Below, piece after piece: positions 875 to 45,412 of a stretch of DNA of 64,000 bases. Source of the DNA: Rhizobiaceae bacterium (GTDB taxonomy: Bacteria; Pseudomonadota; Alphaproteobacteria; Rhizobiales; Rhizobiaceae); the NCBI GenBank assembly GCA_019635775.1, contig JAHBYU010000011.1, positions 62,001 through 126,000 of the forward strand, given 5' to 3'. The position numbers and the translations under genes are program-made. Positions within the stretch are counted from its first letter, which is position 1; every line of letters begins with the position of its first letter. The notes beneath the pieces were generated by a model, which was not told the DNA's origin, ran no database searches, and saw only the letters and a program-made list of their open reading frames with translations.

Positions 875-948
875 GCGGGTATGATGTAATGGTAGCTTGT
901 CAGCTTCCCAAGCTGAACGCGCGGGTTCGATTCCCGCTACCCGCTCCA
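875..948 (+). tRNA. tRNA-Gly (anticodon CCC)
   Basis: The 74-nt sequence folds as a tRNA. The acceptor GCGGGTA (875-881) pairs with TACCCGC (938-944), followed by a discriminator T and an encoded CCA (946-948). The anticodon stem TCAGC/GCTGA encloses loop TTCCCAA, giving anticodon CCC. The T arm is GCGGG-TTCGATT-CCCGC. Its 3' part from the anticodon stem onward is duplicated at 44596-44643, so this gene is the integration site of the prophage. The copy here remains complete and keeps its host-side upstream region. Confidence 0.95.
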
Positions 949-949
949 G
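902..949. repeat. attL, left copy of the 48-bp attachment core
   Basis: This stretch is identical over 48 bp to 44596-44643 and covers the tRNA-Gly anticodon stem-loop, T arm, acceptor 3' strand, CCA and one more base. The flanks diverge on both sides, as expected for a site-specific recombination core. Confidence 0.92.
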
Positions 950-26999: not shown

Positions 27000-27277
27000 T
27001 TCCCCTCCTGCTCGGCTTCTGCGATGATGGAGTCGATCATGGCTTGCCATGCCTCTCGCTGTTCGTCGGGACCGATATGGGGCAGTTCATAAGCCCACAG
27101 CATCGCCTCTGTCGGCTCCCGCATTGCCTTGACAGCGGCGAGGGCCCTAACCTCTGGCGGTATGATGCCCCTGTGGGCGAATGCAACTCTCTCGGGGTGC
27201 GCTGCGATATAATCCTGGTACCACTTTTCAGCGGCGGCCTCCATCGCCCGCGCTATTTCCTCAAGCTTGCTTGACAT
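26996..27277 (-). CDS. Small hypothetical helical protein
   Basis: 93 residues, helical at both ends with a central segment HRGIIPPEVRALAAVKAMREPTEAML that resembles short conserved motifs of many rhizobial phage proteins. It overlaps the HNH gene by 17 bp. Function unknown. Confidence 0.55.
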   Translation of the reverse strand: MSSKLEEIARAMEAAAEKWYQDYIAAHPERVAFAHRGIIPPEVRALAAVKAMREPTEAMLWAYELPHIGPDEQREAWQAMIDSIIAEAEQEGK

Positions 27278-27743
27278 GGCACCACGTCTTCCCGGCTAGC
27301 ACCTGATATATGGTTCGCTTTGCTACCCCAAACTTTGCCGCGAGATGCTCGGGTGTCCCCGCGCCGCTGCGGATCATCCTCACTTTATCTGGCGTTAATT
27401 TAGCGAGGTGTTGGCGCTCACCCCTAACTTGCCTAGCCGCGCTGCACCGGGGAGGACGCACAAACCTACCTTGTACGTCCCTATCCCGTGCATTGTCCTT
27501 GTAGGTTCCGGCGTAAAGATGATCAGGTCTTACGCAGGAGGGGTTGTCGCATTTATGACACGCGATCAAGCCTTGCGCTGGCCATGAGCCAGTATCCAAT
27601 AAAATGGATACGTGCGTTGCCTTGCGCATCCGCTTCCCGACTCTAATTGCCCCGTACCCCTGACGATTCACGCTCCCTGTCCATAACCAGCAACCCTCGC
27701 CTTTAGCGACTTTTGCCCAAAACCGTTCCTCAAGCTTGGTCAT
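27261..27743 (-). CDS. HNH endonuclease, homing type
   Basis: 160 residues. N-terminal GCWLWTGSVNRQGYG, then the HNH core ACHKCDNPSCVRPDHLYAGT with KDNARDRD, typical of HNH_3 free-standing homing enzymes. The C-terminal HTH (PEHLAAKFGVAKRTIYQVL) gives DNA specificity. It lies between small early genes and may be a mobile intruder. Confidence 0.8.
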   Translation of the reverse strand: MTKLEERFWAKVAKGEGCWLWTGSVNRQGYGAIRVGKRMRKATHVSILLDTGSWPAQGLIACHKCDNPSCVRPDHLYAGTYKDNARDRDVQGRFVRPPRCSAARQVRGERQHLAKLTPDKVRMIRSGAGTPEHLAAKFGVAKRTIYQVLAGKTWCHVKQA

Positions 27744-33159: not shown

Positions 33160-34306
33160 GATGAATCGCCTCTATACGGTTGAGAAGGGTTTGAAGATGC
33201 TTGCGCGCAGTCTTGACTTCGCGCGCCGCAGCCTTGGCTTGGGCGACCGACAGATATGGGAGGTCCAGTTCGGCGGCGGCCGCACAAGTGTGATTGATGA
33301 CGCCGAACGCATGTTCAAATTGATCGACGCGCGCCTGTTCGCGATCTGCGCGCGGTGCCTTGCTCTTGCCCCAGACTTTGACCGCGACAGGATCGATGAT
33401 CTCGCGGGCATCGGCTATCTTCATGTCGAGCATCGTCTTGAAGGCGAGGTCAACTATCGCTGCGTCAGAAGGCGAGTAACCGCTACGGTCTGCCAGGAAT
33501 ACGATGTCGCAAGCGGCGCGATAATTGATGGCGCTGATTTTCAGCGACTTGGCGATCGTTGCCGCGTCTTCACCGTTTTGTTCCCGAGCCATACCCTGAC
33601 GGGCAACGTCAACAGGGGTCATCCCATCAGGCAAAATGATCTTGTTGCCGCGCCGCAGATCAATCTGCGTCTCTTCGAAATCCTCGTCTTCCTCTACATC
33701 CATCTCCGGTTCCGCTTGTTTCGTTTTGCCGATGGCAGACGTGTTCATCGTCGCCCTCGTGCCGTGTTTCGTGGTGTAGGTGCGTGGCTTGCTGTCACTG
33801 GAAGAAATTCCAGTGAGCTTCGGACGCAGGCTGGCAACGAGGGGATGACCGACGTTGCACTTGCGGGCGATTTCGCGATCGGACCACTTCGCCCACTCCT
33901 CATCGTTCAGCAGGACAAGGACCGCGCGGCGCTTGTCGTCGTTGGTACGGCGAAGGCCGTGCGTCTCGTTCGCGCCTACGCTGTAGAGGATGGCATCGCG
34001 GCGCGTGCCCTGGCGAATGTCGGCGGGGATAAGATCAATGCCGGCGACTGCAAAAGCACGGACGCGATGGAAGCCGTCCGCCAGCCAATGATCGGTACCG
34101 TCATAGAAAAGCACCACGGGCGGGAACTCGACACCCGCCGCTATGGCGCTGGCGTATTCCTCAATCACAGAGTTCTGAAGCATGGCGCGGGACTGCGTGC
34201 CACCATCGACGCGAATAAGGTTCAGGGGAACGCCTGCGCTTGCACGTGCCGCTACCGCCCGCGCTGCAATTCCGTTCGGCTGCGCGATCTGGTGTGCGAG
34301 GCTCAT
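33152..34306 (-). CDS. ParB domain protein
   Basis: 384 residues from the ATG at 34306 (AGGAG upstream; ATGA overlap). The N-terminal ParB domain shows VPLNLIRVDGGTQSRA, WLADGFHRVRAFAVAG and an HTH-like WSDREIARKCNVGHPLVASL. A long acidic region follows (about 205-235), then a helical C-terminus. It is the first gene after the Cro-like regulator, so it is made early. It may act in replication or gene control; there is no ParA, so plasmid-type partition is unlikely. Confidence 0.72.
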   Translation of the reverse strand: MSLAHQIAQPNGIAARAVAARASAGVPLNLIRVDGGTQSRAMLQNSVIEEYASAIAAGVEFPPVVLFYDGTDHWLADGFHRVRAFAVAGIDLIPADIRQGTRRDAILYSVGANETHGLRRTNDDKRRAVLVLLNDEEWAKWSDREIARKCNVGHPLVASLRPKLTGISSSDSKPRTYTTKHGTRATMNTSAIGKTKQAEPEMDVEEDEDFEETQIDLRRGNKIILPDGMTPVDVARQGMAREQNGEDAATIAKSLKISAINYRAACDIVFLADRSGYSPSDAAIVDLAFKTMLDMKIADAREIIDPVAVKVWGKSKAPRADREQARVDQFEHAFGVINHTCAAAAELDLPYLSVAQAKAAAREVKTARKHLQTLLNRIEAIHHD

Positions 34307-34539
34307 GCCGCTTCTCCTGTCTCGGATGGAGCGGGGCCAAAAATGTCGGGACGAAGCTCGTGACGGGATATGCCGGTGATGCGCTCGACCTCTACCGCGC
34401 GCTCTGGCGGTATCTGCCCACGCTCCCACCTCAAGACCGTGGATTTATCGACGGACGGCGTGAACAAGGCCCCGAACTGCTCAAGGCTCATTCTGTCGTT
34501 GTCGGCGCGGTACGTTGAAATCGGGGATGCGTGTTCCAT
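34303..34539 (-). CDS. Cro-like HTH regulator
   Basis: 78 residues from the ATG at 34539. The HTH MSLEQFGALF...DKSTVLRWERG and the end ITGISRHELRPDIFGP are typical of Cro/YdaS-type phage regulators. It is the first gene of the leftward operon and diverges from the repressor gene. An operator-like palindrome ends 11 bp upstream of the start, so the mRNA leader must be very short or absent. A start further upstream would lie in the operator. Confidence 0.75.
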   Translation of the reverse strand: MEHASPISTYRADNDRMSLEQFGALFTPSVDKSTVLRWERGQIPPERAVEVERITGISRHELRPDIFGPAPSETGEAA

Positions 34540-34549
34540 GCAGGCATTT

Positions 34550-34566
34550 GTTGCATAAGTTGCAAC
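34550..34566. promoter_or_regulatory. Operator O1, GTTGCA-N5-TGCAAC
   Basis: A perfect 6-bp inverted repeat with 5-bp spacing between the divergent cro-like and repressor genes. The same 17-bp pattern recurs at 35372 and 35406. Likely the binding site of the phage repressor and/or Cro. Confidence 0.7.
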
Positions 34567-34635
34567 TATGCGCAAGAGAAAAAGTTGCAGACCACGCTAA
34601 CGAAACGAAGGGGCCGGCGCATTAGCTGTTGCAGC

Positions 34636-34977
34636 ATGGTCAACACGCGATCGATTCATGCCGACAAAACGCCCGTCCGCATCCATTTCATTGAGGAGTG
34701 GGCCGAGCGCCGAAATTTGAAACAGGCGGACATCGTTCGTGAGATCGGGGCCGACAAGGGACTGGTATCCAGATGGTTCGACGGCACCGTTCCTAAAGGT
34801 GAGTACCTGGAGAAGCTGGCCGCACTTTTCGGGACCGATATTCATGGCCTTTTCCGGCACCCGGACGACGATTGGCTGGCCAAACTATTCCGGGACAAGT
34901 CGGAAGCAGACCGCGAGCGGGCGATTGACATGCTCAAGCTCTTTTTCCAGAAAGACCGCACTGGAACAGACGGTTAA
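34636..34977 (+). CDS. XRE-family phage repressor (CI-like, no peptidase domain)
   Basis: 113 residues from the ATG at 34636. N-terminal HTH: IHFIEEWAERRNLKQADIVREIG, DKGLVSRWFDG. C-terminal helices replace the usual S24 LexA-like domain, so induction cannot use RecA-stimulated autocleavage of this protein. Divergent from the Cro-like gene. No clear ribosome site is seen, so the mRNA may be leaderless or the start may differ. Confidence 0.7.
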   Translation: MVNTRSIHADKTPVRIHFIEEWAERRNLKQADIVREIGADKGLVSRWFDGTVPKGEYLEKLAALFGTDIHGLFRHPDDDWLAKLFRDKSEADRERAIDMLKLFFQKDRTGTDG

Positions 34978-35308
34978 CCTGCTCTAACCCTTATCTTGCT
35001 TCATATAGTCCATGACAGTCCGGTGAATCTGTTGTCCGGGCAAAAGGGTGACTAGCCCCGTGCTTCATCAGCATCCGGGGTAGTCCCCTTCCCTTGACAG
35101 TCGGAGCCATCCGCCGCCTCGGGCCTGACAGACGAACACGGCGCTGTCAGATTTTCCGCTACTTCACGATCCCCCGTTAGGAACCGGCATACACCCCTTC
35201 GGAACTTCGGGCTGGGGCTTCCATTTGTATGCGCCCGGTGGTATGGAGGTACCTCTTGCACAGAGGTGTGAGCGCCACCGTCTTCTCAACCTTTCCGCTC
35301 AGCATCAG

Positions 35309-35338
35309 CCCCGGCCATCGCGCCGGGGTTTCGCTTTT
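35309..35338 (+). terminator. Intrinsic terminator before the early promoter
   Basis: CCCCGGC (35309-35315) and GCCGGGG (35322-35328) pair around a 6-base loop, followed by TTTCGCTTTT. It should end the repressor transcript and insulate the early operon. Confidence 0.7.
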
Positions 35339-35371
35339 GTAGGCCACATCATACTGCCCTGCAACAAAAAA

Positions 35372-35388
35372 GTTGCAACTTATGCAAT
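35372..35388. promoter_or_regulatory. Operator O2, GTTGCA-N5-TGCAAT
   Basis: Same 17-bp pattern as O1 with one mismatch in the last base, just upstream of the proposed rightward promoter. Confidence 0.6.
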
Positions 35389-35396
35389 TTCATGTG

Positions 35397-35425
35397 TTGA
35401 CGCGCGTTGCACGTTATGCAACTAT
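35397..35425 (+). promoter_or_regulatory. Rightward early promoter overlapping O3
   Basis: TTGACG (35397-35402), a 17-bp spacer and a weak -10 AACTAT (35420-35425). Operator O3 lies inside the spacer, so bound repressor would exclude RNA polymerase. The first early gene starts 60 bp downstream. Confidence 0.5.
35406..35422. promoter_or_regulatory. Operator O3, GTTGCA-N5-TGCAAC
   Basis: A perfect inverted repeat identical in half-sites to O1, with spacer CGTTA, between the -35 and -10 of the rightward promoter. Confidence 0.65.
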
Positions 35426-35453
35426 CTCCCCATCGAAGCACGAAGAAGCCAAC

Positions 35454-35484
35454 GCCGATCTGCTTCACAGGAAACGGAGAACGG
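35454..35484 (+). repeat. 31-bp leader repeat, copy 1
   Basis: Identical over 31 bp to 35705-35735; contains the purine-rich ribosome site used by the gene that follows. Each copy lies 3 bp or fewer before an ATG. Confidence 0.85.
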
Positions 35485-35486
35485 AA

Positions 35487-35690
35487 ATGACGAACGAGCA
35501 AACCGCAATGACTTTCAGCAACGGCTTGTCGCCGGACGAGGACGACCGCCTGGACGATCTCATCATTGAGTGCGTGAAGCTCATGTCGGCGATCGAAGAC
35601 CTCGGCAGGCATCGTTCCTATTCGCTCGCCCTCACAAAGATTGAGGAAGCCAAGCACTGGCTGCGTGATCGGAAGAACAAGCCTGCCTGA
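35487..35690 (+). CDS. Acb2/Tad1-like hairpin protein (candidate anti-CBASS sponge)
   Basis: 67 residues, first gene of the early operon. The ATG at 35487 follows GGAGAACGG. It folds as two helices: an acidic helix (DEDDRLDDLIIECVKLMSAI) and RHRSYSLALTKIEEAKHWLRD. The second resembles the conserved S-x-x-x-S-x-A-x-TK-x-EEA-x-x-W segment of Acb2/Vs.4-type proteins, which sequester cyclic di- and trinucleotide messengers of CBASS and block that defence. Recognition is by eye; other short helical phage proteins could look similar. Confidence 0.5.
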   Translation: MTNEQTAMTFSNGLSPDEDDRLDDLIIECVKLMSAIEDLGRHRSYSLALTKIEEAKHWLRDRKNKPA

Positions 35691-35735
35691 ACACCAACCC
35701 CGGAGCCGATCTGCTTCACAGGAAACGGAGAACGG
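35685..35735 (+). repeat. Composite intergenic repeat unit
   Basis: The left 33 bp (35685-35717) recur at 36084-36116 with one mismatch; the right 31 bp (35705-35735) recur at 35454-35484. The unit starts at the stop of the Acb2-like gene and ends at the ribosome site of the next gene, so it looks like the scar or recombination point of gene cassettes. Confidence 0.8.
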
Positions 35736-35737
35736 GA

Positions 35738-35923
35738 ATGACGAGCAACCCACTTCGACGCAGAGGCGAGCGTTCCTACTACGTTTGGATCAAAGGTCGC
35801 CGCGCCGAAACCCAAGACCGCGTGACTGGCGACAACAAGGGCGAGGCAATCTGGAAGTTCGCAAAGTATCGCAACGTCAAGACAATCGAATGCGATGCAA
35901 AGTGGATGCGGGGCTTCATCTAA
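35738..35923 (+). CDS. Small basic hypothetical protein
   Basis: 61 residues, basic and aromatic (RRRGERSYYVWIKGRRAETQDR), with a beta-then-helix pattern like small phage nucleic-acid-binding proteins. GGAGAACGGG precedes the ATG. The stop overlaps the next start (TAATG). Function unknown. Confidence 0.6.
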   Translation: MTSNPLRRRGERSYYVWIKGRRAETQDRVTGDNKGEAIWKFAKYRNVKTIECDAKWMRGFI

Positions 35924-36108
35924 TGACGGCTCTGCTTTTCACATGCTCCAAGTGCAGATGCATTGTTGACTATTCCTGCATGTGCAGCGGGCCCCGTGAG
36001 ATTACATCTTTTGAGGGGCACCAAAGTGTTGCCGACGCCAAACGGCGCGTCAGCGAGTGGCAGAGTTTGCCGCAAATCCCGCCGCCTGAACACCAACCCC
36101 GGAGCTGA
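35923..36108 (+). CDS. Small cysteine-rich protein
   Basis: 61 residues with CSKCRC...CMC near the N-terminus, a likely zinc site, then SVADAKRRVSEWQSL. The last nine codons are read from the third copy of the intergenic repeat, where one base change creates its stop. Function unknown. Confidence 0.55.
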   Translation: MTALLFTCSKCRCIVDYSCMCSGPREITSFEGHQSVADAKRRVSEWQSLPQIPPPEHQPRS

Positions 36109-36116
36109 TCTGCTTC
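36084..36116 (+). repeat. Intergenic repeat, third (partial) copy
   Basis: 33 bp matching 35685-35717 with one C-to-T difference. Here the sequence encodes the C-terminus of the preceding gene. Confidence 0.8.
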
Positions 36117-36140
36117 GGAAGCGAAACAAGGGGAATGGAT

Positions 36141-36824
36141 ATGGCCGAACTTATCGACCGGCTCAGGGGAGCAACCATCGACGCCTGCAAGGTGCTGATG
36201 GACGAGTGGGAATTGACGCCCGAGGAAATCGACAGCGTTGCACGCCTCATCCCGCAAAGGTGCAAGGCCATTCAAGAGGCCCGAGACGAGGACGCATGGC
36301 AGGAGCATCAGGAGAGTCTGATGTCTGAAGGCGGGCCGCATAACCACACCCACCGCGACAACATCATTCAGGCCGGTCGCGGCACTGCTCCGCTAACCCC
36401 CAACCAACAGAGGCCCGAGGCCATGACAACCGCATTTGCAGAAGCAGCGTACCTTTCTGAACACCTCCGAGAATGGGCAGGGCGCGGCTACGCTTCGTTC
36501 AACCCGCACGATAAGCCGCTTGAAGAATTGCCCATCATCTTCGGCTTCAACAATGGCGGTTCGCCGGGATGGCTGAACGCCGCCTTGATTGCCGAGGATG
36601 GCACAGTCATGGGTGGTCATATCTGCTCCAACGAAGGCTACATGCCGCACGACCTAGGCATTGTCGAAGGTTCACGGCCCGACATGCATGAGAGCTTCAA
36701 AGCCCACTATCCTGACGGCTACCGCATGGATTTCGTCAAGCACGACGACCCGCGCCTGGATACCGCCTTTGAAAAAAACCGCAAGCTTGTGGAGGCGATT
36801 TCTCCCGCCGAGGCCACCCCATGA
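36141..36824 (+). CDS. Hypothetical early protein
   Basis: About 227 residues from the ATG at 36141, placed 7 nt after AAGGGG; the ATG at 36135 is too close. The N-terminal 60 residues are helical; a linker around residues 70-95 (HNHTHRDNI...TPNQQRP) joins a second part (FAEAAYLSEHLREW, IIFGFNNGGSPGWLNAALIAEDGTVMG). It may be two fused small phage proteins. No known domain recognised. Confidence 0.6.
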   Translation: MAELIDRLRGATIDACKVLMDEWELTPEEIDSVARLIPQRCKAIQEARDEDAWQEHQESLMSEGGPHNHTHRDNIIQAGRGTAPLTPNQQRPEAMTTAFAEAAYLSEHLREWAGRGYASFNPHDKPLEELPIIFGFNNGGSPGWLNAALIAEDGTVMGGHICSNEGYMPHDLGIVEGSRPDMHESFKAHYPDGYRMDFVKHDDPRLDTAFEKNRKLVEAISPAEATP

Positions 36825-37114
36825 ACACGACACGCAGAGGGCAGGAACTTGGGCCGGGTCCGCTCAAGGTGGCAAACCGCACCCACACCCGGCAGTTTTC
36901 CATCCAGAGCGACGTTCATCGCCGCAAGGGCGAGTGGGACGATATCTACGTGGACTTTAGCGGCTATTTCGGAAGCTACGGCCCTGACATGTTCGCCGCC
37001 GCCCCCGACATGTTCGAGGCTCTGAAGGAGACGCTCGCAATCGCCACCCGCAACGAAGATGGGCCGTGGGCCGACCGTGCCCGCGCCGCTCTCCGTAAGG
37101 CCAGTGAGGGCTGA
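36821..37114 (+). CDS. Small hypothetical early protein
   Basis: 97 residues with the segment MFAAAPDMFEALKETLAI, which matches a motif frequent in short proteobacterial phage proteins (AAPDLLEAL). ATGA overlap with the previous gene. Function unknown. Confidence 0.6.
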   Translation: MNTTRRGQELGPGPLKVANRTHTRQFSIQSDVHRRKGEWDDIYVDFSGYFGSYGPDMFAAAPDMFEALKETLAIATRNEDGPWADRARAALRKASEG

Positions 37115-37118
37115 GACG

Positions 37119-37580
37119 ATGAACGCCGCCAACACCTACACCGTCGAACAAACCGAAAATGCAGAAGCACACCCAGCGCTTGGCGCAGAGTATTTTGCAG
37201 CCCACAGCTTCGCTGAGCGCTTCATGGCCCATTGGCAGGAAGAGCATGCCGAGAAGCTGGCCAGCGAGATTATGAATCCGGTTCTGGACGCCGTGCAAGA
37301 TCGCGTTTGGGACGCCTTCCGGGATTACCTGCTTTCCGACACTGAAAGCAACATCGCCAGCGAAATGCGCGACATGGTTGAGAAGTCCGTCCGCGCCCTT
37401 CTAGGCGGCGAGAAGTGGGCCAACGTCAAGTACATCGAATACCCATATCGCGAAGGCCAGAAGGTCCGCGAGGCGCTGGCGAAACTCCATAGCGATCCGA
37501 TCAAGGACGGGCGCATTGCCGACCTCGAAAAAGAGATTGAGCGCCTTCAAGAGCAACTCCGCTGGGCAAATCGCGCCTAG
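37119..37580 (+). CDS. Hypothetical helical early protein
   Basis: 153 residues from the ATG at 37119; helical, ending in a coiled coil (RIADLEKEIERLQEQLRW). No domain recognised. Confidence 0.6.
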   Translation: MNAANTYTVEQTENAEAHPALGAEYFAAHSFAERFMAHWQEEHAEKLASEIMNPVLDAVQDRVWDAFRDYLLSDTESNIASEMRDMVEKSVRALLGGEKWANVKYIEYPYREGQKVREALAKLHSDPIKDGRIADLEKEIERLQEQLRWANRA

Positions 37581-37610
37581 CCCCATCCACCGTCTGACGA
37601 GGGACTCTCA

Positions 37611-37898
37611 ATGAACACGACACGCATGCTCCCACTTAAAATAGAATGCGCGCTTGCAAGGCTTGAGGGCATGGCACAGGCCTTTGATACCCAAGGTCTG
37701 GATCTGCCAATACTGAGAGAGACGGCTGGCGAACTTCGCAAAATCCTCACAGCGCAAGTCGAGGCACTTGAGGAAGCCGCCGAGTATTTCACCAACCAGT
37801 CAGATGTTGTGGACGGCTCTTACGGCATCCCTGAGCCGAACAAGGAAATGCAACTCGCCAGTGCTATGCGTGAAGCGATTTACGGAGTGGGACCATGA
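37611..37898 (+). CDS. Small hypothetical helical protein
   Basis: 95 residues; helical (LALARLEGMAQAF, LRKILTAQVEALEEAAEYF). It starts with the same 16 bp as the gene at 36821 (MNTTR), hinting at a shared start cassette. Overlaps the next gene by ATGA. Confidence 0.55.
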   Translation: MNTTRMLPLKIECALARLEGMAQAFDTQGLDLPILRETAGELRKILTAQVEALEEAAEYFTNQSDVVDGSYGIPEPNKEMQLASAMREAIYGVGP

Positions 37899-38167
37899 AC
37901 GCCCCTGACTGGTTTCTCGTTTTCGACACCGCAGAGCCTCAACACGCCTCCCTGTGCAAGGGCCGTAACGACGCTCTCGAATGTATCTCGTGGTTCAAGG
38001 AACCTGAGAACCTTCGTGTTCACCGCGTCACGCCTGACGAGCTTGTCCGGGACGTGACTGACGACTTCATCAAGCCCGAGCCAGACGAATGGGCAGGTTC
38101 CGCATGGGATCGCTCTGCTTCGGAAGGCGACAGGCTTTACCAGGAACGCATGGAGGGAGTGGCTTAG
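37895..38167 (+). CDS. Small acidic hypothetical protein
   Basis: 90 residues, aromatic N-terminus (PDWFLVFDTAEPQHA) and acidic C-terminus. Directly followed by the SpoU-like gene with no gap. Function unknown. Confidence 0.55.
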   Translation: MNAPDWFLVFDTAEPQHASLCKGRNDALECISWFKEPENLRVHRVTPDELVRDVTDDFIKPEPDEWAGSAWDRSASEGDRLYQERMEGVA

Positions 38168-38635
38168 ATGCGCGGATTTGCTTCCATCGGCCTTGTGCGG
38201 CCAAAGGACGTTGCGAACGTCGGATCGGTACTGAGAGCGGCGTTTTGCTATGACGCGGCGATGGTCGCAATCCAGGGCGACCGGACTCCTGTGAGGTCCC
38301 ACATCGATACCGCGAAGGCGTGGCGTCATATGCCTGTTTTGCGCGGCGAAGACCTGCGGACGCTTATCCCATTTGATGCGGCTCCAGTCGCCGTGGATTT
38401 GGTCGAAGGCGCTGTTCCATTGCCGGATTTCTCGCACCCGCAGCGGGCATTCTATGTGTTCGGCCCGGAGGACGGCACACTCGGGAAGGCAACGCTTGAT
38501 TGGTGCAAATACCGCGTCATGGTGCCGACACGGCTCTGCATGAACCTCGCAGCGACGGTAAACGTCATTTTGTACGACCGGCTCGCCAAGGACTCGTCAC
38601 GCTTAATCGTCCCCCGCCAACCGAGGGCTGCGTGA
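38168..38635 (+). CDS. SpoU/TrmH-family RNA 2'-O-methyltransferase
   Basis: 155 residues forming a minimal SPOUT domain. Motif 1: VANVGSVLRAAFCYDA (N17, R23). Motif 2: RAFYVFGPEDGTLG. Motif 3: RLCMNLAATVNVILYDR, the knot that binds SAM. The length equals TrmL-type tRNA methylases, which modify the wobble base. A phage copy could repair or protect tRNAs or alter rRNA; the target is unknown. The stop shares a base with the next start. Confidence 0.8.
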   Translation: MRGFASIGLVRPKDVANVGSVLRAAFCYDAAMVAIQGDRTPVRSHIDTAKAWRHMPVLRGEDLRTLIPFDAAPVAVDLVEGAVPLPDFSHPQRAFYVFGPEDGTLGKATLDWCKYRVMVPTRLCMNLAATVNVILYDRLAKDSSRLIVPRQPRAA

Positions 38636-38838
38636 TGATCCGCCAGATGCTCGCCTATGACGGCCCGCTCCCCGGCTACGAACGGCCCGCCCCAGTCGTC
38701 ACCTTCCCTCACCTTCGCAGGCAGGAGAGCAAGGTTCTTGAGCGCCACATGGTTCTGGCGGCCGAGCACGGCGACGATGAATACGTGAAGGCCTGCCGGG
38801 CCGAACTTGCCAGACGTGAAGCTGAAAGGAGTGCGTGA
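38635..38838 (+). CDS. Small basic hypothetical protein
   Basis: 67 residues; TGATG overlap with the SpoU-like gene. Helical C-terminus (ESKVLERHMVLAAEHGDDEYV). Function unknown. Confidence 0.5.
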   Translation: MIRQMLAYDGPLPGYERPAPVVTFPHLRRQESKVLERHMVLAAEHGDDEYVKACRAELARREAERSA

Positions 38839-39026
38839 TGGGCGGCAATCAGCACCTCATCCCCTCAGAGCAAGAACCCAAGCTCAAGAGCCTCCCCCAA
38901 GGCTATGCCGAATGGAAGTTCAGGGAAGCTGTAGCTGACCTTATCCAGGAATGCGGCGGCAACCGGAAGATTGCCGAGGGGCTGGCTATCGAACTCGTCA
39001 AGGAAGAAGTGGAGCGCAGATCGTGA
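38838..39026 (+). CDS. Small hypothetical protein
   Basis: 62 residues, helical (YAEWKFREAVADLIQECGGN). The ATG overlaps the previous TGA; a GTG one codon upstream is possible. It overlaps the annealing-protein start. Confidence 0.5.
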   Translation: MGGNQHLIPSEQEPKLKSLPQGYAEWKFREAVADLIQECGGNRKIAEGLAIELVKEEVERRS

Positions 39027-39790
39027 GCAATACCGAACTGTGGGACAAACTCGGCAAGACCGATCCGGCGCAGACGAAATCCTTCACTCGCGGCGGAGGG
39101 TTCAAGGGCACGGCCATCAAGCCAATGTGGTCCTACCGTCGAATGACGGAGGAATTTGGGCCGTGCGGCACAGGCTGGGGAATAGGCGCACCACAATTCC
39201 AGGTTCTACAGGGCGCGGATGACGAGAAGCTTGTCTTTTGCACGGTTACTGTCTGGTACGGCCCGGAACGCCATGAGCTTGTAGGCGTCGGCGGCGACAA
39301 GGCGGTCGGCAAATTCTCCAGCGGGCTCAAGAGCGACGATGAGGCGTTCAAGAAGTCTTTCACGGACGCGGTAACAAACGCCCTGAAGATGATTGGCGTC
39401 GGCGCGGACGTTCACATGGGCATGTTTGACGATAGCAAATACGTCAACTCGCTCAGGGATGAGTTCGCCGAACCAGCCAACGAAGGCCAGAAGCGGCAAG
39501 TCGGATGGAACGCCAGCGGTACCGCGCGGACGGCGCATTCGCTCAAGAAGGAAGGCGTCTGGGATGAGTTCCAGATGGAACTCCGCGAGTGCGAGACGCT
39601 CCATTCTCTCACCAAGCTTGCCCTGATCTGGTCGAAAAAAGCCGAGGATGACAAGTGGCCGGAGCAGTGGCGCGAACTCGCCAAGGAAGAAATCAACAAG
39701 CGCAAGGACGTGCTGAAGGTTGTTCCGGACGACGACACGTTCCCCGGCGACCGCCCGTCCACGCGCACCAACATTCTAGCAGGAGGCTAA
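39023..39790 (+). CDS. Single-strand annealing protein, Rad52/Erf-like
   Basis: 255 residues starting at a GTG (GTGA overlap). FTRGGGFKGTAIKPMWSYRRMTEEFGPCGTGW, then a beta strand (LVFCTVTVWYG) and AFKKSFTDAVTNALKMIGVGADVHMG, which parallels the A--DA--RA----G motif of Rad52-type annealing proteins. The next genes are SSB-like and NinB, so a recombination module is likely. Family assignment is by pattern; a distant Sak or Erf member is possible. Confidence 0.55.
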   Translation: MSNTELWDKLGKTDPAQTKSFTRGGGFKGTAIKPMWSYRRMTEEFGPCGTGWGIGAPQFQVLQGADDEKLVFCTVTVWYGPERHELVGVGGDKAVGKFSSGLKSDDEAFKKSFTDAVTNALKMIGVGADVHMGMFDDSKYVNSLRDEFAEPANEGQKRQVGWNASGTARTAHSLKKEGVWDEFQMELRECETLHSLTKLALIWSKKAEDDKWPEQWRELAKEEINKRKDVLKVVPDDDTFPGDRPSTRTNILAGG

Positions 39791-39791
39791 C

Positions 39792-40064
39792 ATGGCCAAT
39801 TTCGACCCGACCAACAAGGGCACCATCGCCAAGAACGATCGTAAGGAGTCGGACAACCACCCCGATATAGCCGGATCGCTCAACGTGGACGGTAAGGACT
39901 ACTGGATTAACGGTTGGCTGAAGACGAACAGCCGTGACGGTTCCAAGTTCTACAGCCTCACCGTCAAGCCCAAGCAGGAGCGCGCGCAAGAGATACGGCG
40001 CGAGGCTTCAAAGCAGTCCTACGCCGAACAGAGCGGCGGCGAAGATTCGGAAATCCCCTTCTGA
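39792..40064 (+). CDS. Single-stranded-DNA-binding-like protein
   Basis: 90 residues: beta-rich core (PDIAGSLNVDGKDYWINGWLK, SKFYSLTVKP) and an acidic tip EDSEIPF, the SSB C-terminal peptide (D-x-IPF) that recruits replication and repair partners. Directly after the annealing gene. Confidence 0.65.
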   Translation: MANFDPTNKGTIAKNDRKESDNHPDIAGSLNVDGKDYWINGWLKTNSRDGSKFYSLTVKPKQERAQEIRREASKQSYAEQSGGEDSEIPF

Positions 40065-40075
40065 CAACCAGATAA

Positions 40076-40095
40076 CCCCGGCGCGAATGCCGGGG
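40076..40095 (+). other. Stem-loop before ninB
   Basis: CCCCGGC and GCCGGGG pair around a 6-base loop directly before the ninB ribosome site, without a T tract. The stem equals that of the terminator at 35309. It may affect translation or RNA stability. Confidence 0.45.
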
Positions 40096-40108
40096 AGAAA
40101 GGTTTCCC

Positions 40109-40486
40109 ATGCAGACAGTCATCCTTGGAAGCCACAGAGCGAAAGCTCACGAGCTTGTGGATCTCGCCCCACACAACGCGGTGATGACCATCAAGGCGGC
40201 ATCCAGAACGAAAGACCAGAACTCGCTCATGTGGGCGCTTCTGTCGGAAGTGTCGCGGGCAAAGCCAGACGGTCGCTGCCATACGCCGGAAGTATGGAAG
40301 GAACTCTTTATGCATGCCTGCGGCCATGCGGTGCAATTCGAGCTTGGCTTGAACGGCCAGCCCTTCCCGACCGGCTTCCGTTCCTCCCGGCTGACCAAGC
40401 AGGAAATGGGCGACCTTCTGGACTTCATCTACGCGTGGTGCGCCGAGAGGGGCATCCATCTGAGCGATGAGAGGATGGCAGCGTGA
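40109..40486 (+). CDS. ninB: NinB-like recombination mediator
   Basis: 125 residues with the NinB (lambda Orf) pattern: TKDQNSLMWALLSEVSRA, PEVWKELFMHACGHAV, and RLTKQEMGDLLDFIYAWCAERGIHL. Lambda Orf loads recombination proteins on SSB-coated DNA, fitting its neighbours. Stop overlaps the next GTG. Confidence 0.8.
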   Translation: MQTVILGSHRAKAHELVDLAPHNAVMTIKAASRTKDQNSLMWALLSEVSRAKPDGRCHTPEVWKELFMHACGHAVQFELGLNGQPFPTGFRSSRLTKQEMGDLLDFIYAWCAERGIHLSDERMAA

Positions 40487-40698
40487 GACACGTCCGCTCC
40501 TATACCCGTCGCCCGCCAGCAAGGCCTGCAGCCTTCATGGAGAAGTGCGAGCAGCTTCTTGCCGACCTGTGGCTAGAGCGTGAATGGCGGGCACTTGAGG
40601 CCTGCGAATACGCCCTTCCCGTACTTGAGCGTGACCTGTCCGAAATAATCGAGCGGGACGTTCTTGACGATCCCCCAGTTCAACGACCTGTCGCGTGA
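40483..40698 (+). CDS. Small hypothetical protein
   Basis: 71 residues from a GTG (GTGA overlap); basic N-terminus and acidic helical C-terminus. Function unknown. Confidence 0.5.
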   Translation: MRHVRSYTRRPPARPAAFMEKCEQLLADLWLEREWRALEACEYALPVLERDLSEIIERDVLDDPPVQRPVA

Positions 40699-40728
40699 CG
40701 ACAAGGCGCGCATGGAGCAGACATACTA

Positions 40729-41127
40729 ATGCCCCGCCGCGAGTTCACCGTCAAAACCCGCAAGGCTGCGCTCAAGCGCTCCGGCCTGATCTGCGAGGCT
40801 GTTGGTGAATGGTACGGGCTTCCCGCCGGTCAGCGGTGCGTCCGCAATCTGGGCGATGGCGTCGAGTACGATCATTACATTCTCGACGCCAATTCCAAGG
40901 ACAACAGCCTGGAAAACTGCCGGGCGGTTTGCCCGAAATGTCACGGCTGGAAAACCCGGAATCATGACACGCCTACAGCGGCCAAGACCGTTCGCCAGCA
41001 ATTCATGGGCATGAAGACGAAGGGGAAATCTCCCCTCGCAGCCAAGCCTAAAACACCGAAGCAATCCCGGCACGATTGGGCCCCGGAGCTTCCCAGGTTT
41101 CGCAATTTCAAAGGAGTGGAAGGATGA
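40729..41127 (+). CDS. HNH nuclease-like protein
   Basis: 132 residues: EYDHYILDANSKDNSLENCRAVCPKCHGWKTRNHD, an HNH centre with a CxxC pair and the D-H dyad. N-terminal basic (RKAALKRSGLICE). Third HNH protein of the prophage; probably a phage endonuclease for replication or repair. Confidence 0.7.
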   Translation: MPRREFTVKTRKAALKRSGLICEAVGEWYGLPAGQRCVRNLGDGVEYDHYILDANSKDNSLENCRAVCPKCHGWKTRNHDTPTAAKTVRQQFMGMKTKGKSPLAAKPKTPKQSRHDWAPELPRFRNFKGVEG

Positions 41128-41321
41128 CTCCCAAGCAGAAATATGACGAGCGCAAGCGGCTCCGGCTGGAGAACGACCTTCGCGAGCAGCAGCAGCGCAA
41201 GGATCGTCTGGACAGGCAGGACAGCGCCGAGCAGCTCATGGATCGTTTCGTCAATGCCGTGGAGCGTCTGGCGGATGCTGCTGAACTTTGGGCCGACCAG
41301 CAGCGGGAGACGACCCCATGA
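41124..41321 (+). CDS. Small coiled-coil protein
   Basis: 65 residues, almost fully helical and charged (ERKRLRLENDLREQQQRKDR). ATGA overlaps at both ends. Function unknown. Confidence 0.55.
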   Translation: MTPKQKYDERKRLRLENDLREQQQRKDRLDRQDSAEQLMDRFVNAVERLADAAELWADQQRETTP

Positions 41322-42232
41322 GCGAGATACCGGAAGACGTGATGGAGCGGGCGCGGGAATGGACTGGGCCCTTCAAGGGAGATGCAGCGGGCGCGCTAGA
41401 CAGTCTGCGCCGTTCGGTCGCGGAGCTTATTGGAGAAAACCCCGACACTTGGCCGACACACAAGAATGCACCGCTGGCGATTGCTGCCGCTGTCGCGATC
41501 TTGGTGCGCGATGCCCAAGACGCCGCTCTCGTTCCCGCCGCGCTATCCGCCCAGCCTGTGCAGCCCGTGGTGAAAATGCGCACTGGCGATCATGTGCTTC
41601 ATCGACCAAGTCAGGAAACGTGGGTTGTAGCATGGGCCGATTACGAAACGGGTTACATGGCCCCATGCGGCTGGCCAACGTGTCAAGCTCGCATAGATGA
41701 CTGCGATATCGTAAAGGACGCCACCGACGAAGAGTCGGCCCAAATTGTTGCCGCGCTGGCGATATCAGGTCGCACGGATGCGCATAAGGCTACCCAAATC
41801 GCGGATCGTTCCGTGTCCGCCACCCCTCCAGCAAGCGCAGGACCGGAGCCGCAGGGAGAGGCCACCCGCCTCCAGCCTGTCGCATCGCCTGTGCAAGGGT
41901 ATCGCGATCAGATCGCCACCCTCGCCGCAGAAGTAGAAGCCCTGCGGCGGGAGCGGGATGAACTGGACCTGCTCTACAAAGCGGCAAGCGATCTAGGTGA
42001 GAATAACCATAGGATGGCGTCTCGACGCGCCGACTCCCTCGACGCAGTGCTTGCGCAATGCAGGGAGGCGCTGAGGCCGTTTGCTGACATAGCCGGAGAG
42101 GCGTGGGCAGATGAAAATGGCTGGACGGATGCCGCATGCCAGAATGACAGAATACGCGACTGGTTAGGACCGTCTGCCTTCTTTGCCGCCCGTACAGCCC
42201 TGAAAGGAGCCAGCCATGAGCCTACTATCTAG
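41318..42232 (+). CDS. Hypothetical multi-part early protein
   Basis: 304 residues: a helical N-terminal part, a small beta-domain (KMRTGDHVLHRPSQETWVVAWADYETGYMAP), a variable linker and a coiled coil (IATLAAEVEALRRERDEL) followed by CREALRPFADIAGEAWADE, common at the end of short phage proteins. Probably a mosaic of early-protein pieces. Function unknown. Confidence 0.55.
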   Translation: MSEIPEDVMERAREWTGPFKGDAAGALDSLRRSVAELIGENPDTWPTHKNAPLAIAAAVAILVRDAQDAALVPAALSAQPVQPVVKMRTGDHVLHRPSQETWVVAWADYETGYMAPCGWPTCQARIDDCDIVKDATDEESAQIVAALAISGRTDAHKATQIADRSVSATPPASAGPEPQGEATRLQPVASPVQGYRDQIATLAAEVEALRRERDELDLLYKAASDLGENNHRMASRRADSLDAVLAQCREALRPFADIAGEAWADENGWTDAACQNDRIRDWLGPSAFFAARTALKGASHEPTI

Positions 42233-42611
42233 AGTGGCGAAGCTAGAGGGGGCGGATCGGGAAGTGGACGCCGAGATTGATGTTCATCTTTTCGGAGGCG
42301 AAACCGTATGGAAGATGGCGATCTATACTATGGAGAGTTATCCCGCTTCCCGCAGGCCAAGTAAACAGCACATCGGGGGCTTTGCCAACGAATACGTCCC
42401 TTTATACACTTCCTCCCTCGACGCTGCGGTAGCGCTTGTAGAGCGCGTCAGGCCGGGATGCGACTGGCAAGTTTCTAACGGGCACGAGGACGGGTGCGCG
42501 GCCCGTATTGACTATGGCGAAAGAGCCACCTTCCATGCCGGTCACACCCCCGCCATAGCGCTTATCCTTGCCCTTCTCCAATCTCTCGATATGGAGCCGT
42601 CCGATGCCTGA
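42216..42611 (+). CDS. Small hypothetical early protein
   Basis: 131 residues with SLDAAVALVERVRPGCDWQVSNG, found in many rhizobial phage proteins, and HTPAIALILALLQSL at the end. Overlaps both neighbours. Function unknown. Confidence 0.6.
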   Translation: MSLLSRVAKLEGADREVDAEIDVHLFGGETVWKMAIYTMESYPASRRPSKQHIGGFANEYVPLYTSSLDAAVALVERVRPGCDWQVSNGHEDGCAARIDYGERATFHAGHTPAIALILALLQSLDMEPSDA

Positions 42612-42984
42612 CTACAAGGAAAAGGCGCAGGAGATTGCGGCACGGTGGCGCGGTCCAGTTGGCGGCGTTCTGTATGGCGACATCCTTACCGCCCTACGCG
42701 AGGCGCACGAAGCTGGACGGCGGGAGGAAAGGGAGGGGTGGCAGCCTATCGAGACAGCGCCGAAAGACGGAACGCCCATCTGGCTTGGGAGTGAACACGG
42801 CTCAATGCGGGTCGGCTTATGGGAAGGTGGCGCGCAGCACGAGAACCACGGAACTGTAGGTGGCGGATGGCGAGACTTCTACCGTATCGAATGTGATGGC
42901 CAGCGCGATACCCTGTGGCCTGTGGTCTGGTGGCACCCGCTTCCTTCCCCGCCCGCCATCCTCTCGGAGCAAGGCGATGGCTGA
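42604..42984 (+). CDS. DUF551-like protein
   Basis: 126 residues; WQPIETAPKDGTPIWLG at the centre and WWHPLPSPP near the end, the DUF551 pattern. A related protein is at 30715-31050 in the leftward operon. Function unknown. Confidence 0.65.
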   Translation: MPDYKEKAQEIAARWRGPVGGVLYGDILTALREAHEAGRREEREGWQPIETAPKDGTPIWLGSEHGSMRVGLWEGGAQHENHGTVGGGWRDFYRIECDGQRDTLWPVVWWHPLPSPPAILSEQGDG

Positions 42985-43267
42985 GACTGTGCGGGAATGG
43001 AAAGAGGCGTTCACACACAGAACGCCGAAATGGCCGCTGGCGGGGTATGCTCCGGGCGGATACATGGCGACCTGCGTTCGTTGTGAGCAACAGTTCATCG
43101 ACATGGATAAACGGGCCATTCACTGCTTCCCATGCGCCATCGACGCAGCAAACGAGTGCATGGAACAGCAGCGTATCCGTATCAGGGAACTTGAGGCGGA
43201 GAACGAAACCCTTCAGTCGGCTTTCGCAATCCTCGCCCGCCCCCGCCCTACAGGAGGCCAGGGATGA
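42977..43267 (+). CDS. Small zinc-finger-like protein
   Basis: 96 residues: CVRCEQQF...CFPC, a possible zinc site, then a coiled coil (CMEQQRIRIRELEAENETL). Function unknown. Confidence 0.55.
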   Translation: MAETVREWKEAFTHRTPKWPLAGYAPGGYMATCVRCEQQFIDMDKRAIHCFPCAIDAANECMEQQRIRIRELEAENETLQSAFAILARPRPTGGQG

Positions 43268-43470
43268 CGAGGGCGCTCCGGTTCAGCAAGGCAGAGCTTA
43301 AGCGCGCTGTTGAACTGGTGCGCGACGAAGACGTTGCCGTGAAGCTTACTAGAGACGGCGGTATCCTCCTAATCCCCGCTAAACACATAGCCGGAAGGGT
43401 TGACCCGACCGAAGACGATATCCTCGATGCCGAACTAAAGGCATTCGAGGAAGAACATGGTTACCGTTGA
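43264..43470 (+). CDS. Small protein directly upstream of integrase
   Basis: 68 residues: FSKAELKRAVELVRDEDVAVKLTRDGGILLIP, then an acidic tail. In the place where an excisionase would be expected, but no clear winged helix is visible. Overlaps the integrase start by 14 bp. Confidence 0.55.
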   Translation: MTRALRFSKAELKRAVELVRDEDVAVKLTRDGGILLIPAKHIAGRVDPTEDDILDAELKAFEEEHGYR

Positions 43471-44488
43471 GATGAAGGGCCTGCATGTCGTCAAGTCAAG
43501 AGGGAAGACCTACGTCTATGCATGGCGCGGCGGGCCTGCCGTCAAATGCGATGCGGACCCCGGAACCCCCGAGTTTTTCGCAGCCTATCAGGAAGTCATA
43601 ACCTCCAATGCGGTTCCGAATCGGAAAGCATTCAAATCAGTTATCATCCGCTACCGCGCAAGCCCGCAATTCAACGCCCTCGCCGATTCCACCAAGAAGA
43701 ACTGGCGACCGTGGCTTGACCGGATAGAGGAACATTTCGGCAAGATCAGGACAGCGCAATTCGGGCGCATCGAAAAGATATTGCCGATCATCCGCCGCTG
43801 GCGTGGAAAATGGGAGCAGAACCCAAGGACAGCCGACTACGGTATCCAGGTTCTGTCACGCGTCCTTGCCTATGCCGTTGACCCATTGGGTGAGTTGAAC
43901 CGGAACCCTTGCGAGGGGTTGAAACAACTCTACAGCGCCAACCGCTCGGAAATCATTTGGACCCCGGAAGACCTTGCGAGGGTCAAGCCGCATTGTTCAT
44001 CCGACATATGGAACGCGGTCGAGCTTGCTGCGCATACGGGGTTGAGATTGGGCGATCTGGTCAAGGTGTGCTGGTCGCATGTCGGGGAAGACGCGATCAT
44101 CATGCGAACGGGAAAGTCGCGGGGAAAGAAGGAAGCCATCATCCCGCTCTATCCCGAGCTAAGGGATTTGCTGGCGAGAATCCCAAAGCGCTCGACGCAG
44201 ATATTGACCAACAGCAAGAAGCGCCCTTGGCACAAGGACAGCATCACCGGACTGTTTCCAGAGATCAAGACGAAGGCATGGCCGGAAGGAACGAACCTCC
44301 ATTTCAACGACCTGCGCGGGACCGCCGCAACGAAGTTCTATCTGGCGGGATTCACGGTTCGGGAAATAGCCGAGATGATGGGCTGGGAAGAAGGCTCTGT
44401 GGACAAGATCATTCGCCGCTATGTGAGCCTTACGGCGGCGTTGAAAGAGCGCATCAAAAAGCTTTCGCGCGAGGCTGAAAATGGCTAG
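43457..44488 (+). CDS. int: Tyrosine integrase
   Basis: 343 residues. The C-terminal catalytic domain has the first arginine in HTGLRLGD (R197), a lysine-bearing beta hairpin (GKSRGKKEAI), the second arginine in HFNDLRGTAATK (R287), GW (W310) and the nucleophile in IIRRYVS (Y322). In the HxxR box the residue at the histidine position is Asn (N284), with a His two places earlier. It should recombine attP with the tRNA-Gly(CCC) gene; attR begins about 100 bp after its stop. GAGGAAG precedes the ATG. Confidence 0.9.
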   Translation: MVTVEMKGLHVVKSRGKTYVYAWRGGPAVKCDADPGTPEFFAAYQEVITSNAVPNRKAFKSVIIRYRASPQFNALADSTKKNWRPWLDRIEEHFGKIRTAQFGRIEKILPIIRRWRGKWEQNPRTADYGIQVLSRVLAYAVDPLGELNRNPCEGLKQLYSANRSEIIWTPEDLARVKPHCSSDIWNAVELAAHTGLRLGDLVKVCWSHVGEDAIIMRTGKSRGKKEAIIPLYPELRDLLARIPKRSTQILTNSKKRPWHKDSITGLFPEIKTKAWPEGTNLHFNDLRGTAATKFYLAGFTVREIAEMMGWEEGSVDKIIRRYVSLTAALKERIKKLSREAENG

Positions 44489-44492
44489 AATT

Positions 44493-44522
44493 GTTTTACA
44501 GTTCGCCGTCCGAAGCTTTACA
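44493..44522. promoter_or_regulatory. Candidate integrase arm-type sites, right arm
   Basis: GTTTTACA at 44493-44500 and GCTTTACA at 44515-44522, in the same orientation as the left-arm copies. Between the integrase stop and the attR core. Confidence 0.35.
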
Positions 44523-44595
44523 AATCAATGGGTTAGTAACAGGCGTTTTGGGTATGGCATTTGGTGTAAGTCGTTGATTTTGCAAGGAACCCTTT

Positions 44596-44643
44596 AGCTT
44601 CCCAAGCTGAACGCGCGGGTTCGATTCCCGCTACCCGCTCCAG
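44596..44643. repeat. attR, right copy of the 48-bp attachment core
   Basis: Perfect copy of 902-949. It carries only the 3' part of the tRNA, and the host gene downstream ends two bases later. Confidence 0.92.
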
Positions 44644-44644
44644 T

Positions 44645-45412
44645 TCACTTCTCGCCATAGATGTCGATGTCGAAATAGCGTTTGCGGATCGCGTCGTACG
44701 TCCCATCGGCGAGGATTGCATTCAGCGCTGCCTGCAGGCGGTCGTGCAAGTCGCGGTCGTCGAGCCTGACGGCCAGGCCCGCCTCAGCGCCGGTCCCCGG
44801 GACATCGCCAACCATAACACAGCAATCGGAGCCGTCCGTCCTCATCCAGTCGATCAGCTGGAGTTTATCCGACAGAACCGCGTCAAGACGGCCGCCGGAC
44901 AGATCGAGCATCGCATCCGTCTGGCCCGGATAAAGCTTCAGTTCCGCGCCGGCCTTGCCGAATGTCCTGGCAGCATAATCCGCCTGCCAAGTCTGCCCTT
45001 GCACGCCGAGCGCCTTGCCGGTCAGTTCCGAAGCATCTACGCCGGCAACGCCTGCCTCCTTGCGCGCGACGATCGCCAGCGGCGTCGCGTAATATTTGTC
45101 CGTGAACAGGACCTGCTTGCGACGTTCCTCGGTAATGGTGAGTGAAGCCGCAATGATGTCGATCTTGTCGCCCTGCAGGGCCGGAATCAGCCCCTCCCAG
45201 TCTATTGTGACGACGCTGCACTCGACGTTCATGCGCTCGCAGAGGGCCCGGGCGATATCCACATCGAACCCGACGATCTGGCCGTCCGAGGAGATATTGT
45301 TGAAGGGCGGATAGGCCCCCTCAGTCCCGATGACCAGATCCTCCGCCGAGGCCATGCCGGCCATCATGGCGAAGATGATCCCGGCTTGGCGGATCAGTCG
45401 GACGACACGCAT
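44645..45412 (-). CDS. Amino-acid ABC transporter substrate-binding protein
   Basis: 255 residues with a signal peptide (IIFAMMAGMASA). The mature part shows the SBP_bac_3 pattern: LVIGTEGAYPPFNN, GFDVDIARALCERM, DIIAASLTITEERRKQVLFTDKYY, and AVLSDKLQLIDW. Such proteins bind Lys/Arg/Orn/His-type amino acids in the periplasm. No permease genes adjoin it, so it may be an orphan. It shares one base with the upstream deaminase gene. Confidence 0.8.
   Translation of the reverse strand: MRVVRLIRQAGIIFAMMAGMASAEDLVIGTEGAYPPFNNISSDGQIVGFDVDIARALCERMNVECSVVTIDWEGLIPALQGDKIDIIAASLTITEERRKQVLFTDKYYATPLAIVARKEAGVAGVDASELTGKALGVQGQTWQADYAARTFGKAGAELKLYPGQTDAMLDLSGGRLDAVLSDKLQLIDWMRTDGSDCCVMVGDVPGTGAEAGLAVRLDDRDLHDRLQAALNAILADGTYDAIRKRYFDIDIYGEK

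Follow-up and report, generated by a model that had tools for sequence, protein, structure and literature searches.

We identified, in a prophage of a Rhizobiaceae bacterium, a 67-residue protein that is probably a minimal sponge for cyclic trinucleotides. It would be produced when repression of the prophage ends and would counter NucC-type CBASS. The ligand, the oligomer, the timing and the protection we infer. By profile comparison, the protein is homologous to the hairpin domain common to the Acb2 and Tad1 sponges. In the following, the window is the whole stretch of DNA that was analysed (64,000 nucleotides of contig JAHBYU010000011.1), and coordinates without a prefix refer to it.

A conserved 67-residue gene and its hairpin domain

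The gene and its leader are located as follows:

35487..35690, + strand: 67-residue hairpin-only protein of the Acb2/Tad1 superfamily, predicted cyclic-trinucleotide sponge; helices at residues 16-38 and 43-64
35457..35486, + strand: leader with a purine-rich ribosome-binding region; near-identical copy before the next gene, 35708-35737

The reading frame opens with an ATG at 35487, closes with a stop codon ending at 35690 and follows the purine-rich leader ACAGGAAACGGAGAACGGAA. In agreement with the initial annotation, which had described a product of 67 residues with two helices, the AlphaFold2 monomer model (mean pLDDT 86.6) contains two antiparallel helices preceded by 15 residues. The block pLDDT over residues 21-60 is 96-97, and the fold as such is not discriminating. 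The segment RHRSYSLALTKIEEAKHWL, which had been singled out in that annotation, corresponds to residues 41-59.

The ORF is a genuine, conserved gene that evolves under purifying selection. When the window gene and four of its relatives were compared pairwise, dN was lower than dS in 10/10 pairs, for example 0.128 versus 0.738 for the pair L001-L073, with many dS values lying near saturation. The short length of the ORF and a score under the curated Pfam cut-off might invite the reading that it is spurious, or that its resemblance to the sponges arose by chance. Given the dN values, five relatives with 52-61% identity on separate contigs, and a profile test in which the protein scored 43.3 bits and shuffled sequences at most 10.8 bits, we consider the probability of this negligible. 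The profile in this test was a joint one of Tad1 and Acb2-like hairpins, built without the window subfamily. With this joint profile, the other five members of the subfamily scored 33.6-39.3 bits. As controls, the best of 6,000 shuffles gave the 10.8 bits and the best other of 470 window ORFs 4.6 bits; ORF 35373-35690 is the same sponge-like gene with an earlier start and was not counted as another ORF.

A search of the whole Pfam library matched the protein to PF24729 ('Acb2/Tad1, hairpin domain') with E=2.1e-5. Its scores of 25 bits as protein and 24.1 bits as DNA do not reach the curated gathering cut-off of the family (27 bits); judged apart from this cut-off, the homology is statistically significant. 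PF24729 was also found in 5/5 members of alignment A5 and 11/11 members of alignment A3, with the window protein counted in both and with four of the five close relatives scanned (L150 left out), all four of which match. Though two bits below the cut-off, the profile search thus bears out the membership in the Acb2/Tad1 family that the initial annotation had proposed. By hhalign, the window type aligned best with Tad1 (E=4e-13, 39 columns), followed by the Acb2-like proteins (E=6e-10, 54 columns); Tad1 and Acb2-like proteins aligned with each other at E=1e-6 over 20 columns.

In the PDB, the A3 profile, which combines both hairpin-only groups, matched Acb2 homolog 43 (9ptq, 5e-4), Tad1 (0.025), Vs.4 (0.032) and p26 (0.29), the last of which we take to be an Acb2; the unrelated chain 3jqh scores in the same range (6e-4). 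Searches with the single 67-residue sequence returned no NCBIfam family, seven non-sponge PDB chains with E values of 0.79 or higher, no tblastn match in INPHARED and PLSDB, no PADLOC profile at E 0.01, and, among 394 genomes of the family, its own genome only.

Pocket signatures and placement among the sponges

Three scans of IMG/VR yielded 56, 44 and 41 loci on largely shared contigs. In the first scan, 53/56 loci (L004-L056) were read as Tad1-type, including L031, which matches the PDB Tad1 8kbb at 6e-21. The close hairpin-only relatives are found on five contigs (L001, L002, L073, L075 and L150, with the starts of L075 and L150 picked within longer open frames), and a set of short-loop Acb2-like relatives comprises L003, L079, L102, L112, L113 and L114. 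A scan of genome contigs gave 13 loci, all of which were put in the Tad1 signature set before duplicate removal. For the signature counts, 66 Tad1-type loci were reduced to 50 distinct rows, and 6 of 29 Acb2 rows, which have no anchor, were left out to give 23. Other genomes of the same family encode short-loop Acb2-like proteins with RHxYRxLSDxEK and IKD-like motifs (L122, L123, L125, L126, L129, L131) or long-loop ones (L121, L124, L127, L128, L130, L132, L139, L140).

In PaMx33 Acb2, Y11 and K26 reportedly bind dinucleotides and R67 trinucleotides, a distinction said to come from Huiting et al. 2023 and Cao et al. 2024. The Y-x14-K signature of the dinucleotide pocket (Y11/K26 in PaMx33, Y8/K23 in T4) occurs in 19/23 anchored Acb2 rows, in 0/50 Tad1 rows and in 0/6 window-type sequences. 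Counted without the anchor, it is present in 24/28 non-window rows, all six unanchored rows among them; it is missing from L079, L136, L137 (probably a false match) and L141 (where the frame begins late). Aligned to PaMx33 Acb2, Tyr11 corresponds to S11 and Lys26 to I26 of the window protein, and the six members have Ser, Asn, Thr, Asp or Val at the Tyr position and Ile, Met or Ala at the Lys position. The same alignment pairs R67 with R43 and T74 with T50, both of which are kept in 6/6 subfamily members. An Arg seven residues before the helix-2 Thr is found in 6/6 window-type, 50/50 Tad1 and 20/23 anchored Acb2 rows. It is from this spacing and the alignment that R43 is equated with PaMx33 R67, which we take to be the channel-site Arg for trinucleotides; T4 Vs.4 has an Asp at this place, which weakens the R67 rule. 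Since the dinucleotide-pocket Tyr and Lys are missing and helix 2 is nearer to Tad1 than to Acb2, the family assignment of the initial annotation is refined: the protein is not a close Acb2/Vs.4.

These substitutions bear on the view that the protein is an ordinary Acb2-like sponge, also or mainly for cyclic dinucleotides such as cGAMP, in which F10 stacks in place of the missing Tyr. Such a sponge would share the hairpin-only architecture of Acb2, and the 29 residues from the conserved Leu to the conserved Arg are as in the short-loop Acb2-like group (by eye). F10 adjoins the missing Tyr, is present in 6/6 members and could still stack a dinucleotide. Nevertheless, the residues at the Tyr and Lys positions and the cA3 type of the CBASS found in the host (see below) make this quite unlikely in our judgement. 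T4 Y8 aligns with PaMx33 Y11, and T4 T68 with T50 of the window protein. PMC12657230 calls T4 Acb2 Y8A binding-deficient, which also speaks against a dinucleotide sponge, and says that T68M lowers affinity.

The Tad1 helix-2 core R-x-x-x-[LI]-A-x-T-K-I-E-E-A-x-H-W is present in the window protein (alignments A2 and A5), and F-x-[NKEQ]-G occurs in 6/6 window-type and 49/50 Tad1 rows (the exception being L068, a short frame) and in 1/23 anchored Acb2 rows. Together with the best hhalign score, these likenesses would be expected if the protein were a degenerate Tad1 directed at gcADPR and Thoeris. This is very improbable, however, since the N-terminal beta domain of Tad1, which according to PMC12043709 forms part of the gcADPR pocket, is absent from all six members by the starts chosen. 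Moreover, the Tad1 REN motif reads R-x-Y in the window type (R-S-C in L150), and no TIR_2 or ThsB_TIR protein was found in the host genome. In the window, operator-like sites lie upstream of the gene, where the N-terminal domain of a Tad1-type protein would precede the hairpin.

A Tad1 with a simple deletion, in which FxNGLT would represent FQNG...NGLT joined, was considered unproven and set aside. The region of helix 1 and the turn exceeds that of Tad1 and has the length seen in the short-loop Acb2-like group (by eye), and in an unrooted tree the six rows fall between both groups and do not form one resolved clade. This tree (30 hairpins, 49 columns, with short-loop Acb2-like rows only) recovered the Tad1 rows and the Acb2-like rows as two supported groups; 4/27 inner branches are well supported and the bootstrap is not settled.

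Judged by sequence, the window protein and its five IMG/VR relatives form a third, hairpin-only type between Acb2 and Tad1, distinct from Tad1 and from standard Acb2. A hairpin-only Tad1-like subfamily is not named in the titles or abstract openings of the literature searched, from which we make no claim of its absence from print.

No shared gene order was seen around the relatives, of which four were compared by tblastn with all window ORFs and five by ORF listing; close to L073 lies a relative of the HNH ORF 40729-41127. Different surroundings in the five relatives are what would be expected of an accessory counter-defence gene, not of an operon-specific partner, and the sponge-type gene behaves like a movable accessory gene. 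Near a further sponge relative, L074:1503-1940 and L074:5780-6082 resemble window ORF 27261-27743 (37% and 30%), and an epimerase-like ORF is also found there (by eye).

Alternatively, the hairpin may have taken on a different role, for instance that of a small regulator or of an assembly partner within the early operon, without binding any nucleotide. The protein is small and divergent, and its ligand pocket is a predicted one. Structural comparison was uninformative on this point: the top Foldseek match of the predicted model was Vs.4 at E=3.2 and none was significant, two-helix hairpins being too common to discriminate. The protein has weak matches to four PHROG families (best E 0.0023), of which one comprises transcriptional regulators (E=0.25) and three have no assigned function. 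Against such a role stand the different surroundings of the relatives and the concentration of conservation on helix-2 residues that are the same in the sponges (R43, A48, T50, K51, E53, E54, A55 and W58), and we regard it as unlikely.

The prophage and the CBASS operon of its host

The sponge-type gene is part of a prophage in tRNA-Gly(CCC), which is bounded by exact 48-bp repeats and has the following landmarks:

902..949, + strand: attL, the 3' part of tRNA-Gly(CCC) (tRNA 875-948) plus one base
22830-24290: large terminase
34303..34539, - strand: Cro/YdaS-like HTH protein, divergent, leftward (YdaS_toxin E=1.4e-8)
34551..34565, - strand: exact copy of the operator-like 15-mer, between the Cro/YdaS-like and repressor-like genes
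34636..34977, + strand: repressor-like HTH_3 protein (HTH_3 E=1.9e-5)
35307..35330, + strand: terminator-like hairpin between the repressor-like gene and the operator-like sites
35373..35387, + strand: operator-like 15-mer TTGCAACTTATGCAA, upstream of the sponge-type gene
35407..35421, + strand: second operator-like site, two mismatches
43457..44488, + strand: phage integrase, end of the rightward cluster (Phage_integrase E=3.8e-14)
44596..44643, + strand: attR, 48-bp exact copy of attL

The initial annotation had placed the gene first in a rightward early operon, behind a repressor-controlled promoter. It does stand at the start of the rightward cluster, with the repressor-like gene and two operator-like sites upstream; its early expression and its control by the repressor we infer. 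A sigma-70 consensus scan upstream of the gene found no promoter, so that the promoter claim is carried by the operator-like repeats alone. The 15-mer pattern was derived from the sequence itself, and what counts is therefore its second exact copy; a scan with it gave three matches at up to three mismatches versus 0.92 expected, and 6/100 shuffles had at least three. Three terminator-like sites were found in 34300-35800, versus 1.5 expected in shuffles. With operator-like sites and a terminator-like hairpin after the repressor-like gene, the sponge-type gene plausibly heads a repressor-controlled transcript.

The roughly 400 bp that separate the repressor-like gene from the operator-like sites (34978-35372) contain no convincing ORF on the + strand. 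The leader GATCTGCTTCACAGGAAACGGAGAACGG(A/G)AATGACGA recurs at 35457-35490, 35708-35741 and 36107-36140, with near-identical copies ahead of the first two cluster genes and a partial one ahead of the third; it could be either a shared translation signal or a trace of recent duplication. In Rfam, the region 34000-36500 has a single match, which falls short of the gathering score and is of no meaning here; in INPHARED, megablast with 34000-46000 retrieved a single record, which shares only about 45 bases annotated as tRNA-Gly. Inside the rightward phage cluster, 38168-38635 encodes a SpoU-type RNA methyltransferase (E=1.8e-13).

By sequence comparison, the host carries a CBASS operon of the cA3 type. 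It is located on host contig C35 (L120:5594-9130, - strand) and encodes a TRIP13-like ATPase, two HORMA proteins, a CD-NTase (CdnD) and NucC, with PADLOC E-values of 1.5e-144 (TRIP13), 1.5e-74 and 1.8e-82 (HORMA), 1.6e-146 (cyclase) and 2e-111 (NucC). The cyclase matches 6p8u, 6p82 and 6p8j at 7e-152 to 6e-150, and NucC matches 6q1h at 1.3e-123 and NucC of E. coli MS115-1 at 1.7e-113. PMC13424991 describes 6P8J as PaCdnD, a cA3-making enzyme with a TGSY motif and a Lid2 His; TGSY and TNPKIH are visible in the host cyclase (by eye). NucC, according to PMC10419184, is activated by cAAA. Two sets of tyrosine-recombinase and IS91-like transposase ORFs flank the operon (L120:2911-5073 and 11250-13252; by eye), which suggests that it is on a mobile island.

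Besides CBASS, the search for signalling systems covered TIR_2, ThsB_TIR and Cas10-palm. Since TIR_2 and ThsB_TIR had no match in the host genome, Thoeris was set aside as a target. So was type III CRISPR, because the two Cas10-palm matches sit in ORFs with the GGEEF motif of diguanylate cyclases (GGDEF-type, by eye).

Across the family, strong NucC matches (profile E < 1e-70) occur in 9/388 genomes, a partial match in G173 among them, and PF24729 in 18/388, two of which (the host genome and the doubtful G346) are below the curated cut-off. Taking both 388-genome samples as the same set, the two overlap in one genome, that of the host, versus about 0.4 expected. Strong NucC is present in 0/17 of the other PF24729 genomes (G178 has a weak match, 9e-4), and no general association of sponge and NucC was found among the 388 genomes. 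The pairing in the host fits the prediction, but is one case.

Proposed mechanism and comparison with known systems

Acb2 and Tad1 are described in the review PMC12043709 as hexamers that both bind cyclic trinucleotides at a trimer channel, independently of the dinucleotide and gcADPR pockets; Acb2 is said there to act in induction, not in the maintenance of lysogeny. In the window protein the hairpin is kept and the parts peculiar to both other pockets are missing, so that we predict a cA3/cAAG sponge of minimal size, which should bind cA3, and cGAMP and gcADPR weakly or not at all. By analogy with Acb2 and Tad1, its two-helix protomers would assemble into trimers and hexamers, and the central channel ends of the oligomer would hold cyclic trinucleotides such as cA3. 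Release of the prophage repressor would switch on the sponge, which would sequester cA3 before this can activate NucC to destroy the DNA.

More tentatively, the hairpin-only proteins may be hairpin sponges of a third class, intermediate between Acb2 and Tad1, which has neither the dinucleotide pocket nor the gcADPR domain, is dedicated to trinucleotides and lies near the smallest working core of the fold. If so, the other two pockets would have been added to a trinucleotide channel whose function is ancestral or irreducible. In the known sponges, which bind several signals simultaneously, the role of each pocket is hidden. A 67-residue relative that seemingly has the trinucleotide site only, in a host with CBASS of the cA3/NucC type, would offer a clean test with one fold, one pocket and one signal. 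If this holds, it would also yield an annotation rule for sponge specificity from sequence, namely retention of Arg and Thr with loss of Tyr-x14-Lys, as well as a compact binder of cA3.

The presumed target of the sponge, as distinct from its relatives, is a CBASS of the P. aeruginosa CdnD/NucC type (6p8j, with the close entries 6p8u and 6q1h), to which the cyclase and NucC of the host operon are closely similar by the E-values given above. We take 6p8u and 6q1h to come from this type of system.

Among the sponges themselves, the window protein resembles Acb2 (PaMx33 ORF24; T4 Vs.4), an anti-CBASS sponge, in being hairpin-only, small and phage-borne and in its helix-2 core A/G-x-T-[KD], and PaMx33 Acb2 in the Arg seven residues before the helix-2 Thr. 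Unlike Acb2, it has 67 residues (93 in PaMx33, 88 in T4), has neither the Tyr-x14-Lys pair nor the long inter-helix loop, and its helix 2 reads ALTKIEEAxHWL, as in Tad1. Acb2 homolog 43 (76 residues), the top PDB match of the A3 profile, was compared by part of its sequence. With Tad1 (Thoeris anti-defence 1; PDB 8kbb, 7uav and others) the protein shares F-x-N-G before helix 1 and the strong profile-profile match, and its residues 43-62 match Tad1-type loci at 70%. In contrast to Tad1, it is without the N-terminal beta domain and the C-terminal RGVEGT tail, has R-x-Y (C in L150) for REN, and its helix 1 and turn are about five residues longer (by eye).
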